DNA of 45,896 bases from Chloroflexia bacterium. Lineage in GTDB: Bacteria; Chloroflexota; Chloroflexia; Thermomicrobiales; CFX8. Where the stretch lies: positions 1 to 45,896 of the forward strand of contig JAUIIK010000027.1 of the NCBI GenBank assembly GCA_030431755.1. Direction: 5' to 3'. This document shows, piece by piece, positions 39,332 to 45,896 of the stretch. Position numbers and translations under genes: made by a program. Under the pieces are notes generated by a model. The model was given only the letters and a program-made list of their open reading frames with translations. It had not been told where the DNA came from and made no database searches. The stretch's first letter is position 1; every line of letters starts with the position of its first letter.

Positions 39332-40672
39332 TCAATTCGACGTGATCCTGAAGACTCCGGTTATGTCGAGCTGCTCGCCGTCGTCGACGGTGAACGCGGA
39401 GACCTGGCTGACATCGGCCGCCTGGTACTCGGGTGGCAGGGACTGAATCCGCAAGACGTAGGTGCCGGGCCCATTCTCGGCCAGATCAACACGCCCGTTC
39501 TCATCGGTTGTGACCGGGATCAGCTCAGGCGTATCCCTGCCTGGCGCGACATACTCGACGATCAGCTCGACGCCGGAGATCGGTGTTCCAGCTTCGGAGG
39601 CGAAGGTAACTGTCGCGCCCGACGGGCCCGAGGCGGCGGTCTCGCTCGATCCGAACGGATTGACGAGCGCCAGCAGCAGCAAGATCACGCCAACGGTCGC
39701 CAGCGCCGCGCCGATGAGAAACGCCCGCGTCAGATACCAGGCAGTTCGAGTGGCGGCGACGGGGATCGTCTGCACCGGCACGCGCGTGGTCACCTGGGCC
39801 GCCGATGCGCCGCCGTCCGAGACGGGAGCGTTGCCCGGCCATTCGTTCATGACATTCGAGAGAATCGCCGCTTTGATATCCGGCCCGGCTTGCACCGGCA
39901 CGAACGCGCCGAGGATCGCGGTCGGCGAGACCATCTCAGCTTGTTTTTCCTGGCAGACCTCGCACGCAGCCACATGCCGGCGAACCAACCGGCGAGCGCC
40001 AGGCGAGATGCTGGCGATGCCCGCGTCAGTTAGCGCGGCATCGAGCTCCGGACAATGCCTGCGCCCCTCCCTCATCATGATATAGGCTCCGATTGATTCT
40101 TCGACGGCGGCGCGGAGCCGGTTGAGCATGACGTAGCCATTGTTGGCCGTCACACCCAGCACATCGGCTATCTCGGCGCTGTCGAGCCCTTGACGCAGAT
40201 GCATGTCCAGCAGTGAATACTGCTTCGGACTCAGCCCGGCCGCGGCTTCCCAAACCAGCGCGGCCATCGCTTCCGCCTGGGCCGCCTCGTCGGGCGACCC
40301 AAAACGGTCTGCATCGATCAGATCGAGTTCGACATCTTCGCCGTCGTCATCTGCAAAGACGAGCGGCCGGGAGCGCTTCTCACGCTCGATACGGTTGAGG
40401 GCGGTGTTGCGCGCAATCGTGAAGAGCCAGCTCTTGAACTTGTTGCCGCTCTCCAGCCGGTCAATCGAACGGATCGCTCGGATGAACGTATCCTGCGCGA
40501 CATCCTCCGCCTCAGCGCGGTTGCGCATCATACGGGAGAGGAAGTCGAAGATACGGTCGAAGTAGCGGTCGTAAAGCTCGGCGAACGCTTCCTGGTGACC
40601 ATTTTGAGCAAGACCAACCAGTTGCGCGTCATCGAAGCGAGTCAGATCGCGCTCGCTCGTCGCCATTGCCAT
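39332..40672 (-). CDS. ECF sigma factor fused to zinc-finger anti-sigma, TM helix and extracellular Ig-like domain
   Basis: Residues 25-95 form sigma region 2 (AFAELYDRYFDRIF, EDVAQDTFIRA, FKSWLFTIARN). Residues 135-190 form region 4 (LSPKQYSLLDMHL, SAEIADVLGVTANNGYVMLN). A ZAS-type zinc finger follows, with C207 and H233-x3-C237-x2-C240, as in anti-sigma factors. One TM helix (about 313-337) precedes a C-terminal domain of 105 residues with a carboxypeptidase-regulatory/CnaB-like pattern (GTPISGVELIVEYV, TDENGRVDL). Sigma and anti-sigma halves are normally separate proteins. Fusion implies a membrane-tethered sigma factor, released by proteolysis or acting at the membrane. The ATG at 40672 has GGGGAT upstream; 446 residues. 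Confidence 0.88.
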   Translation of the reverse strand: MAMATSERDLTRFDDAQLVGLAQNGHQEAFAELYDRYFDRIFDFLSRMMRNRAEAEDVAQDTFIRAIRSIDRLESGNKFKSWLFTIARNTALNRIEREKRSRPLVFADDDGEDVELDLIDADRFGSPDEAAQAEAMAALVWEAAAGLSPKQYSLLDMHLRQGLDSAEIADVLGVTANNGYVMLNRLRAAVEESIGAYIMMREGRRHCPELDAALTDAGIASISPGARRLVRRHVAACEVCQEKQAEMVSPTAILGAFVPVQAGPDIKAAILSNVMNEWPGNAPVSDGGASAAQVTTRVPVQTIPVAATRTAWYLTRAFLIGAALATVGVILLLLALVNPFGSSETAASGPSGATVTFASEAGTPISGVELIVEYVAPGRDTPELIPVTTDENGRVDLAENGPGTYVLRIQSLPPEYQAADVSQVSAFTVDDGEQLDITGVFRITSN

Positions 40673-40816: not shown

Positions 40817-41215
40817 TCACGGCGTTTCTATGAGCAGCCCAGGGATACCCCGAAAATCGGATTGATTGTTGGTAGCCAGCGTCAAGCCGTGTTCGAGCGC
40901 TGTCGCGGCGATCATGAGATCCATGAGCCGGCTTCGCACACGCATTCCCTGACGCTGCAATACTTGTCGCAGCATCGCACAACGCCTGGCTTCGGCCTCG
41001 CCAAACGCTACGACTGGCACCGCCCGCGCAAACTCTTCAATGCGGGTACGAGCCTCTAGAGGCCGCGGACTTGATGACATTCCCGCAAGCACCTCCATTA
41101 GCGTCACTGTGGATATCGCCACGCCCTCATCCATCAACCGATCAAGCATCCGCTCGATCTCCGGCGCTTCATTGGAGTAGTAGATCACGATGTCCGAGTC
41201 CACCAGATACGGCAT
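40817..41215 (-). CDS. PIN-domain toxin (VapC-like ribonuclease)
   Basis: This 132-residue PIN domain keeps the acidic catalytic set: D6 and D8 in YLVDSDIVI, E41 in TLMEVLAG, and D99 in RLMDLMIAATAL. A final T/N-rich ATNNQSDF follows. PIN toxins cleave RNA, often tRNA or rRNA. It starts 2 bases after the stop of the upstream gene, the usual antitoxin-toxin arrangement. The gap of 144 bases to the sigma-factor start shows no other gene. Confidence 0.87.
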   Translation of the reverse strand: MPYLVDSDIVIYYSNEAPEIERMLDRLMDEGVAISTVTLMEVLAGMSSSPRPLEARTRIEEFARAVPVVAFGEAEARRCAMLRQVLQRQGMRVRSRLMDLMIAATALEHGLTLATNNQSDFRGIPGLLIETP

Positions 41216-41217
41216 GG

Positions 41218-41544
41218 TTAGGAAGATGCGTCCCAGCGGTCATCGTGACGTTCATCACGAATCTGTTGGATCAGTGCGTCCACGTCTACCCCGTCCAAGA
41301 TGCCCTGGGTGGCCGCCAGCGCAGCGCGCACCTTCTTGACATCGTAATTCGTCCAGATACCTCGGCGCTGTGCGAACTGCTCGTGGCTGGTCTCCCGACG
41401 GCGCGCCGTGTCCACATCAGCGACGTATACGTCGTAACTATCTTCGCCGGTGCTTATCTGCAGTTCCAACTCCCCACGGGCCGCTCCTTCGATGAGCTGG
41501 GCAAGCTCCGGATCAGCGCGGTAGGTCCGGACGTTAACTGGCAT
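41218..41544 (-). CDS. Putative antitoxin partner of the PIN toxin
   Basis: The gene encodes a 108-residue acidic protein with GELELQISTGEDSYDVYVADVD in the first half and a helical second half (VKKVRAALAATQGILDGVDVDALIQQIRDERHD, shortened: RAALAATQGIL, ALIQQIRDERHD). The C-terminal tail resembles the toxin-wrapping tail of VapB-like antitoxins. I do not recognise a named DNA-binding family. The role is inferred from position: it precedes the PIN gene by two bases and is the right size. GTAGGAGG provides the ribosome-binding site 6 bases before the ATG. Confidence 0.65.
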   Translation of the reverse strand: MPVNVRTYRADPELAQLIEGAARGELELQISTGEDSYDVYVADVDTARRRETSHEQFAQRRGIWTNYDVKKVRAALAATQGILDGVDVDALIQQIRDERHDDRWDASS

Positions 41545-44460: not shown

Positions 44461-45896
44461 TTGCAGATCGTAGTGCGTGTAGTTGCGATTGCCACGATCC
44501 TGACCGCCCTGGTCAGCTTGAGCCCAGCCAGTCCGGCCGTAGCCGCTGGTGTCGTCGGAGACGGCACAGCCGGGAGTTGCGTCGAGAGCGCACTGGACAC
44601 AGCGCTTGCCGGTGGCGGCCCAGTGATCTTCAACTGCGGCGCAGGTCCAGTCACGATCAATCTAACGAGCGAGAAGGTCATCGCAACCGACACACAGATC
44701 GACGGCGGCGGGATGATCACGCTCGATGGACAGGACCAGACGCGGCTCTTCTCCGTCAATGACAGTATCGCGTTGGAGCTGAGCAACATCACCTTGACCG
44801 GGGGCAACGCCATTGGCTCGACCGATACCAGAAATGGCGGCGCGATCTACAACAACGGCGGCACGCTTACGTTGATCAACGCCACCGTCAGCAGCAGTTC
44901 CGCAACGAGCACGAACACGAACAACACCGGCAACGGCGGCGGGATTTACACGCTGGGCGGCGTCGTTACGATCAGTGGCAGTACGCTCAGCGGCAACTCC
45001 GCATCCGGGAGTCTCAGCCAGACAGGTCACGGCGGCGCGCTCTACAACAATGGCGGAGCAGTCACGCTGACTGACAGCACCGTCAGCGGTAACACAGCCG
45101 ACCGCGAAGGCGGCGGCATCAATACCGGCGGCACGCTCGACGTGACCGGCAGCACCTTCAGCGGCAACACATCGATCCTCTCCGGAGGCGCGATCTATAC
45201 GAGGGTCAGCGGCAGCACTTCAGTGGAGGACAGCACCGTCAGCGGCAACACTGCCCGGTCGGGTGGCGGTATCTACAGCACGTCGGCCACCACGGCGGTC
45301 CTGACAAACGTCAACATCCTCAACAACATGGCGGTCGGCGTCAACGCAGTGAGCCAGCCGGTTGGGTCTGGCGGAGGAATTGTCGGCGGCGGCACCGGCG
45401 CCACGCTGTCGATCATCGACAGCACGGTCGACGGAAACAGCGCGAATCTTCAGGGTGGCGGTATCTTCAACAACAATAACGGCACAATCACGATCACCAC
45501 CAGCACGATCAGCGACAACTCAGCCGACGATGGCACGAGCGCGGTCTTTGAAGAGGACGGCGGCGCGATTCACAACGACGAGCGGGGCACCATCACGATC
45601 ACCCGCAGCACACTCAGCGGCAACACCGCTGGCGACGATGGCGGCGGCATCTTCAGTAGCAAACGCGGCGCCATAAGCATCACGAACAGCACTCTGAGCG
45701 GCAACACTGCGGGCGACGATGGCGGCGGTATCTATAGCGAGGCCGGCACGACCACTCAGCGTGGCTCCGTCACCATCGAGCACGGCACGCTCAGCGACAA
45801 TTCGGCCGGTGGCATCGGCGGCGGCATCCGCAGGGAAATATTCAGCACCGTCGAGTTTCAGAACACGATCATCGCCAACAGCACCACCGGCGCAAA
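44461..45896 (+). CDS. Secreted right-handed beta-helix repeat protein (3' end beyond the window)
   Basis: The frame runs without a stop from a TTG at 44461 to the last base of the window, at least 478 codons. The TTG has AGAGGAG about 8 bases upstream; a GTG at 44473 is an alternative. A signal peptide (ILTALVSLSPASPAVAA) leads to a conserved head (AGSCVESALDTAL, FNCGA). Repeats of about 25-40 residues follow with the pattern GGGIYxxGG, then VTIxxSTxSGNTA, for example GGGIYTLGGVVTISGSTLSGN (two parts: GGGIYTLGG, TISGSTLSGN). This is the polymorphic-outer-membrane-protein-like/parallel beta-helix fold, common in surface or adhesive proteins. Cell anchoring cannot be seen because the end is missing. 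Confidence 0.82.
   Translation, partial: MQIVVRVVAIATILTALVSLSPASPAVAAGVVGDGTAGSCVESALDTALAGGGPVIFNCGAGPVTINLTSEKVIATDTQIDGGGMITLDGQDQTRLFSVNDSIALELSNITLTGGNAIGSTDTRNGGAIYNNGGTLTLINATVSSSSATSTNTNNTGNGGGIYTLGGVVTISGSTLSGNSASGSLSQTGHGGALYNNGGAVTLTDSTVSGNTADREGGGINTGGTLDVTGSTFSGNTSILSGGAIYTRVSGSTSVEDSTVSGNTARSGGGIYSTSATTAVLTNVNILNNMAVGVNAVSQPVGSGGGIVGGGTGATLSIIDSTVDGNSANLQGGGIFNNNNGTITITTSTISDNSADDGTSAVFEEDGGAIHNDERGTITITRSTLSGNTAGDDGGGIFSSKRGAISITNSTLSGNTAGDDGGGIYSEAGTTTQRGSVTIEHGTLSDNSAGGIGGGIRREIFSTVEFQNTIIANSTTGA

Follow-up and report, generated by a model that had tools for sequence, protein, structure and literature searches.

The 45,896-nucleotide stretch of Thermomicrobiales DNA analysed here (the window) carries a gene (39332..40672, minus strand) that encodes a 446-residue protein combining an ECF sigma factor and its putative anti-sigma factor with a membrane helix and a predicted outside domain. 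The reading frame runs from an ATG at 40672 to a stop codon ending at 39332, with 446 codons and no internal stops. An earlier note, which gave no strand, had described sigma regions 2 and 4, a zinc motif, one transmembrane (TM) helix and a C-terminal beta domain in this single frame, and Pfam and NCBIfam searches, profiles, hydropathy and homologues confirm that description. The Pfam matches follow one another in the order Sigma70_r2 (2.1e-19), Sigma70_r4_2 (3.9e-5), zf-HC2 (weak, 0.07) and CarboxypepD_reg or SpaA (both weak, 0.001 and 0.01, respectively). The full domain order is kept in L021, a protein from another genus that is 48% identical to the window protein over its full length and, judging from this conservation, its occurrence in the window protein is well beyond chance.

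Sigma-70 region 2 (PF04542) occupies residues 33-100 (40373..40576, minus strand). Region 4 (PF08281; about residues 140-194, 40091..40255, minus strand) is weak by Pfam alone, its match falling just below the cut-off, and is further indicated by profile comparison with solved structures and by an AF2 model of this piece, which aligns with sigma-4 of SigL (3hug, 6dv9) at a Z of about 7. The NCBIfam sigma70-ECF model covers residues 28-192 (7e-26). A profile of the sigma part retrieves AlgU, SigW (1e-23), RpoE and other solved structures, with best values down to 2e-27, and the A2 profile aligns on SigW, RpoE and SigH chains as far as position about 194. Regions 2 and 4 are thus present, regions 1 and 3 are absent, and the profile covers full ECF chains, as in an ECF sigma factor. 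Two family members (L082:52-1623, plus strand; L083:916-2385, minus strand) have sigma domains too diverged for a Pfam match at 0.01, and sigma activity has possibly been lost in both.

The zinc anti-sigma domain (residues 207-278; 39839..40054, minus strand) contains the motif HVAACEVC, beginning at residue 233, and an extra cysteine upstream at residue 207. An alignment of 24 fused homologues shows no invariant columns other than C207, H233, C237 and C240 (C-x25-H-x3-C-x2-C), each conserved in 24/24. A profile of this stretch matches the solved structures of RsiW (5wuq, 1.7e-4), RslA (3hug, 7.7e-4) and ChrR (2q1z, 1.3e-3); its remaining matches to E = 0.02 are a collagen fusion chain, of which no stretch passed alone, and the antisigma factor DdvA (0.014). 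As judged from these homologies, the anti-sigma part is real despite the weak single-sequence Pfam match. The Hx3Cx2C motif, the upstream cysteine ligand and the homology to RsiW, ChrR and RslA place it in class I (zinc ASD/ZAS), whose helix 1 contacts sigma-4 and whose helix 4 contacts sigma-2 (PMC7406223). Since the N-terminal part matches SigW and the C-terminal part matches RsiW, both members of a SigW/RsiW-like pair lie in one chain. Profiles find in the window protein both halves of the split SigW/RsiW-type (5wuq) and SigL/RslA (3hug) systems; those systems, however, are each encoded by two separate genes, whereas the window protein is encoded by one.

A hydropathy peak at residues 319-337 (39662..39718, minus strand; mean Kyte-Doolittle value 2.84) is the sole TM candidate in the window protein, and this predicted helix speaks for the membrane topology on which the earlier note had made its reading depend. 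Topology was assessed from hydropathy and charge: lysine and arginine average 2.7 per 20 residues before the helix versus 0.9 after it in 48 proteins and are more frequent before it in 37 of the 48, which is consistent with the sigma part inside and the C-terminus outside. The C-terminal ectodomain (residues 352-446; 39335..39619, minus strand) is predicted to be a transthyretin/CarboxypepD_reg/SpaA-like beta sandwich and has no proline-rich stalk. CarboxypepD_reg is matched more strongly in the sister protein L021 (2e-6) than in the window protein (1e-3). AF2 models built on two sequences gave a fairly confident beta sandwich, with most of the C-terminal 95 residues at pLDDT 60-80, and a poor model of the whole chain (pLDDT 47). 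The sigma-4/zinc piece modelled better than the whole chain (pLDDT 66), but two-sequence input is too weak to place the domains and hence to tell how zinc domain and sigma pack in cis. VIA-align of the ectodomain model gives a Z of about 5 to 5-hydroxyisourate hydrolase (HIUase), transthyretin and SpaA/BcpA pilin domains, neighbours that fit the Pfam hints of CarboxypepD_reg and SpaA. In the model, the transthyretin/pilin likeness is one of fold and implies no function.

Within the window, no anti-sigma gene adjoins the fused gene. At four other ECF loci of the same genome (L002, L007, L011 and L013), a neighbouring ORF carries the zinc motif, three of these ORFs scoring above the profile threshold. 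Directly upstream of the sigma gene lie a VapC-like PIN-domain toxin gene (40817-41215, minus strand) and its small upstream partner (41218-41544, minus strand; weak Imm8 match), and on the downstream side an MMPL transporter gene is convergent with it. The window thus shows no conserved partner, as neither the VapC-like pair nor the MMPL transporter has a counterpart beside other fused genes. Near the end of the window, a protein with Chlamydia-type PMP repeats (44461-45894, plus strand; PF02415, 1.4e-18) runs to the last positions. The upstream regions of six Thermomicrobiaceae orthologues gave no clear alignment of an ECF promoter or autoregulatory motif, and a sigma-70 promoter scan found nothing.

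The genome encodes M50 site-2 proteases (best match 2.6e-55) and two rhomboids, all unlinked to the window gene. In two other genomes (G468 and G287), the gene directly upstream of the fused one, and co-directional with it, encodes a rhomboid, and in L039 a rhomboid gene lies 3.8 kb away; the rhomboid genes of these three relatives are L108:7500-8288 (minus strand), L110:7709-8584 (minus strand) and L039:1162-1962 (plus strand). The neighbouring rhomboid is a candidate for the releasing protease. There is no adjacent rhomboid gene in the window, and the other members of the family that were inspected have none to a distance of about 1.5 kb; rhomboid as a general partner was rejected on the count of three relatives and kept as a lead. 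In Thermomicrobiaceae and in the distant genome G341, the fused gene is followed by genes for DUF11/lectin-type surface proteins, which are candidate targets of the fused sigma factor. Such secreted DUF11/Laminin_G-type proteins are encoded at L070:10459-14204 (plus strand) among relatives of Thermomicrobium roseum and at L111:2602-5872 (minus strand) in the distant lineage.

A search of 158 genomes of the class found the full sigma-zinc-TM arrangement in nine, all from one order (Thermomicrobiales), at 1e-144 or better, the next match being at 1e-37. In T. roseum DSM 5159, the fused gene is located on the megaplasmid, whose sequence is complete, as one 436-aa CDS annotated just 'RNA polymerase sigma factor'. 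Further fused frames of the same domain order, spread over many other Chloroflexota families and many genera, were added by sampling the phylum (400 genomes) and another of its classes (294 genomes). The Cys...Hx3Cx2C motif occurs in all 49 frames read and a predicted TM helix in 48, the exception (L137) being interrupted by a contig end. As the search profile itself includes the zinc and TM parts, these counts characterise the family and do not test it independently. Lower-scoring matches in the same searches do lack the zinc part. One family (f28; L087-L094) has frames of 290-345 aa with sigma and zinc parts and no TM helix, and represents a soluble form of the one-piece protein.

The ectodomains are far more varied than the cytoplasmic part. 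BLAST clustering at E<1e-3, with low-complexity filtering, sorts the 48 ectodomains into 27 clusters, a number that does not equal 27 folds since ectodomains consisting of a stalk alone stay single in this clustering. Pfam identifies a PD40 propeller (L134:1426-3828, plus strand; 2e-35), a cohesin domain (L131:196-2481, minus strand; 7e-7), a BACON domain (L120; 1e-8), a right-handed beta helix (L081; 7e-10) and sortase domains (L142, 1e-20; L135, 3e-16), and in several family members the outside part is a Pro/Thr-rich stalk alone. The two sortase-ended sigma factors (L142:1447-3114, plus strand; L135:838-2457, minus strand) carry an enzyme that might serve as a sensor or as a reporter of the cell wall. 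L039 is 65% identical to the window protein in the sigma part but has a Thr/Pro stalk and a BACON-cluster domain outside. On the tree of sigma regions only, eight ectodomain labels require at least 10 changes versus a minimum of 7. Across this range of sequences, a CarboxypepD_reg-like ectodomain does not define the family but is one putative sensor type among many. Among actinobacterial fusions, L098, a plasmid-collection record, ends in a CAP domain (Pfam, 4e-26); a CAP-type end also follows the sigma-zinc-TM part in L072, L097 and L099 by sequence similarity, the four being from Streptomyces, Embleya and Kitasatospora. A sigma fusion on a Cellulosimicrobium plasmid (L096:1747-3339, plus strand) carries an AbfB arabinose-binding domain (1e-30).

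In sigma-only trees, the window protein groups with L021 (99/97) within a clade (100/96) whose further members include L039, L073 and L074. The Chloroflexota fusions, 41 in number, come together in one group (93/73), apart, with moderate support (87/50), from six actinobacterial fusions, which were drawn from plasmid-collection records and do not include SCO4117. L080, L084 and the TM-less sigma-zinc group L087-L095 are placed elsewhere with starred support, which implies more than one gain or loss of the fusion; the deep branches of these trees are weak and the root was not inferred.

The earlier note, while aware of C-terminally extended ECF groups, had singled out this exact architecture as deserving attention; as a claim of novelty this is not supported by comparison with described groups. 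The hallmark of ECF52, represented by SCO4117 of Streptomyces coelicolor, is a sigma factor fused C-terminally to a zinc finger, a TM helix and an extracellular domain (PMC5826349, PMC8999054), an arrangement shared in one chain with the window protein. Proteolytic release has been proposed for SCO4117, and results with a construct without the zinc, TM and carbohydrate parts are consistent with release (PMC5826349). ECF52 is, however, described from Actinobacteria only, and its proline-rich stretch and carbohydrate-binding module are both absent from the window protein. In ECF48 and ECF53, also from Actinobacteria, a zinc-finger anti-sigma domain and one or two TM helices are fused C-terminally to sigma (PMC8999054); the likeness of the window protein to these two groups is drawn from their descriptions. 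IutY of Pseudomonas putida (ECF243) likewise holds sigma and anti-sigma in one membrane polypeptide, from which cleavage by Prc and RseP frees sigma (PMC5411451), but its anti-sigma part has a periplasmic cell-surface-signalling domain and works with an outer-membrane receptor, whereas the window protein has a cytoplasmic zinc domain and a small beta-sandwich ectodomain. Thus, the one-piece sigma/anti-sigma architecture as such is not new. No published account of Chloroflexota ECF fusions was found in the literature searched, and the addition made here appears to be a mostly Chloroflexota clade with highly varied ectodomains, apart from the sampled actinobacterial fusions. As SCO4117 and the published group HMMs are absent from the comparison, an existing ECF group may already contain the window protein.

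The domain order, its conservation, the homology of both cytoplasmic parts at the family level, a predicted TM helix showing positive-inside bias and the presence of S2P and rhomboid genes are observed here; the clamp, the signal, the release and the target genes are what we infer. The protein probably serves as membrane receptor and sigma factor in one, held by a zinc clamp in cis and released by regulated proteolysis. The N-terminal ECF sigma would lie in the cytoplasm, where the zinc domain immediately after region 4 would inhibit it in cis, with one helix spanning the membrane and the small transthyretin/CarboxypepD_reg-like domain outside. A cue acting on the ectodomain (a ligand, or the state of the cell wall or envelope) would open the stalk to cleavage by a site-1 protease; the sigma part would then be freed by intramembrane cleavage, through either a site-2 metalloprotease or a rhomboid, and removal or loosening of the zinc domain would let sigma bind RNA polymerase. 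Release by regulated proteolysis, which the earlier note had suggested, is the most plausible activation route by the precedent of IutY.

Cleavage might also be dispensable, since the architecture of the fusion would allow a reversible intramolecular clamp: a signal at the ectodomain would shift zinc packing through the TM helix and leave sigma reversibly active at the membrane, and nothing in the present data shows cleavage. Such a tethered switch is unlikely, given that IutY, which comes closest among the one-piece proteins studied by experiment, is switched on when Prc and RseP cut it (PMC5411451) and that S2P and rhomboid genes are present in the genome. The invariance of all four zinc ligands and the members with a stalk alone outside would suit a zinc domain that senses redox state or zinc in the cytoplasm, as in RsrA or ChrR, with the ectodomain merely an anchor or envelope-binding module. 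The same motif is common in membrane-bound anti-sigma factors, however, where it can be structural, as in RsiW (PMC7406223), and many members have a recognisable folded domain outside, which makes a cytoplasmic sensor less probable again. Joining of two genes by an assembly error or frameshift, the refutation envisaged in the earlier note, is ruled out by the recurrence of the one-frame order in many genomes that are independent of one another, among them T. roseum DSM 5159 with its completely sequenced megaplasmid, and nothing was found in its favour.

Beyond the single protein, these genes may form an unrecognised, largely Chloroflexota family of sigma receptors, in which a conserved sigma/zinc-clamp/TM part is combined with many ectodomains and released by an intramembrane protease, a neighbouring rhomboid in some lineages; this tentative view has somewhat less than an even chance of being right. 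If it holds, the family would be the one-component counterpart of split ECF/anti-sigma systems. Should the mechanism be as proposed, sensor, anchor, inhibitor and transcription factor would reside in one gene, and the sensor of each sigma factor would be known without guessing partners. With so many natural ectodomains attached to a single conserved switch, the exchangeability of sensors becomes testable, and a modular way of engineering membrane-to-promoter receptors suggests itself. The family also adds a sizeable clade from a second phylum to the one-piece sigma/anti-sigma proteins, which have been described for the most part in Actinobacteria.
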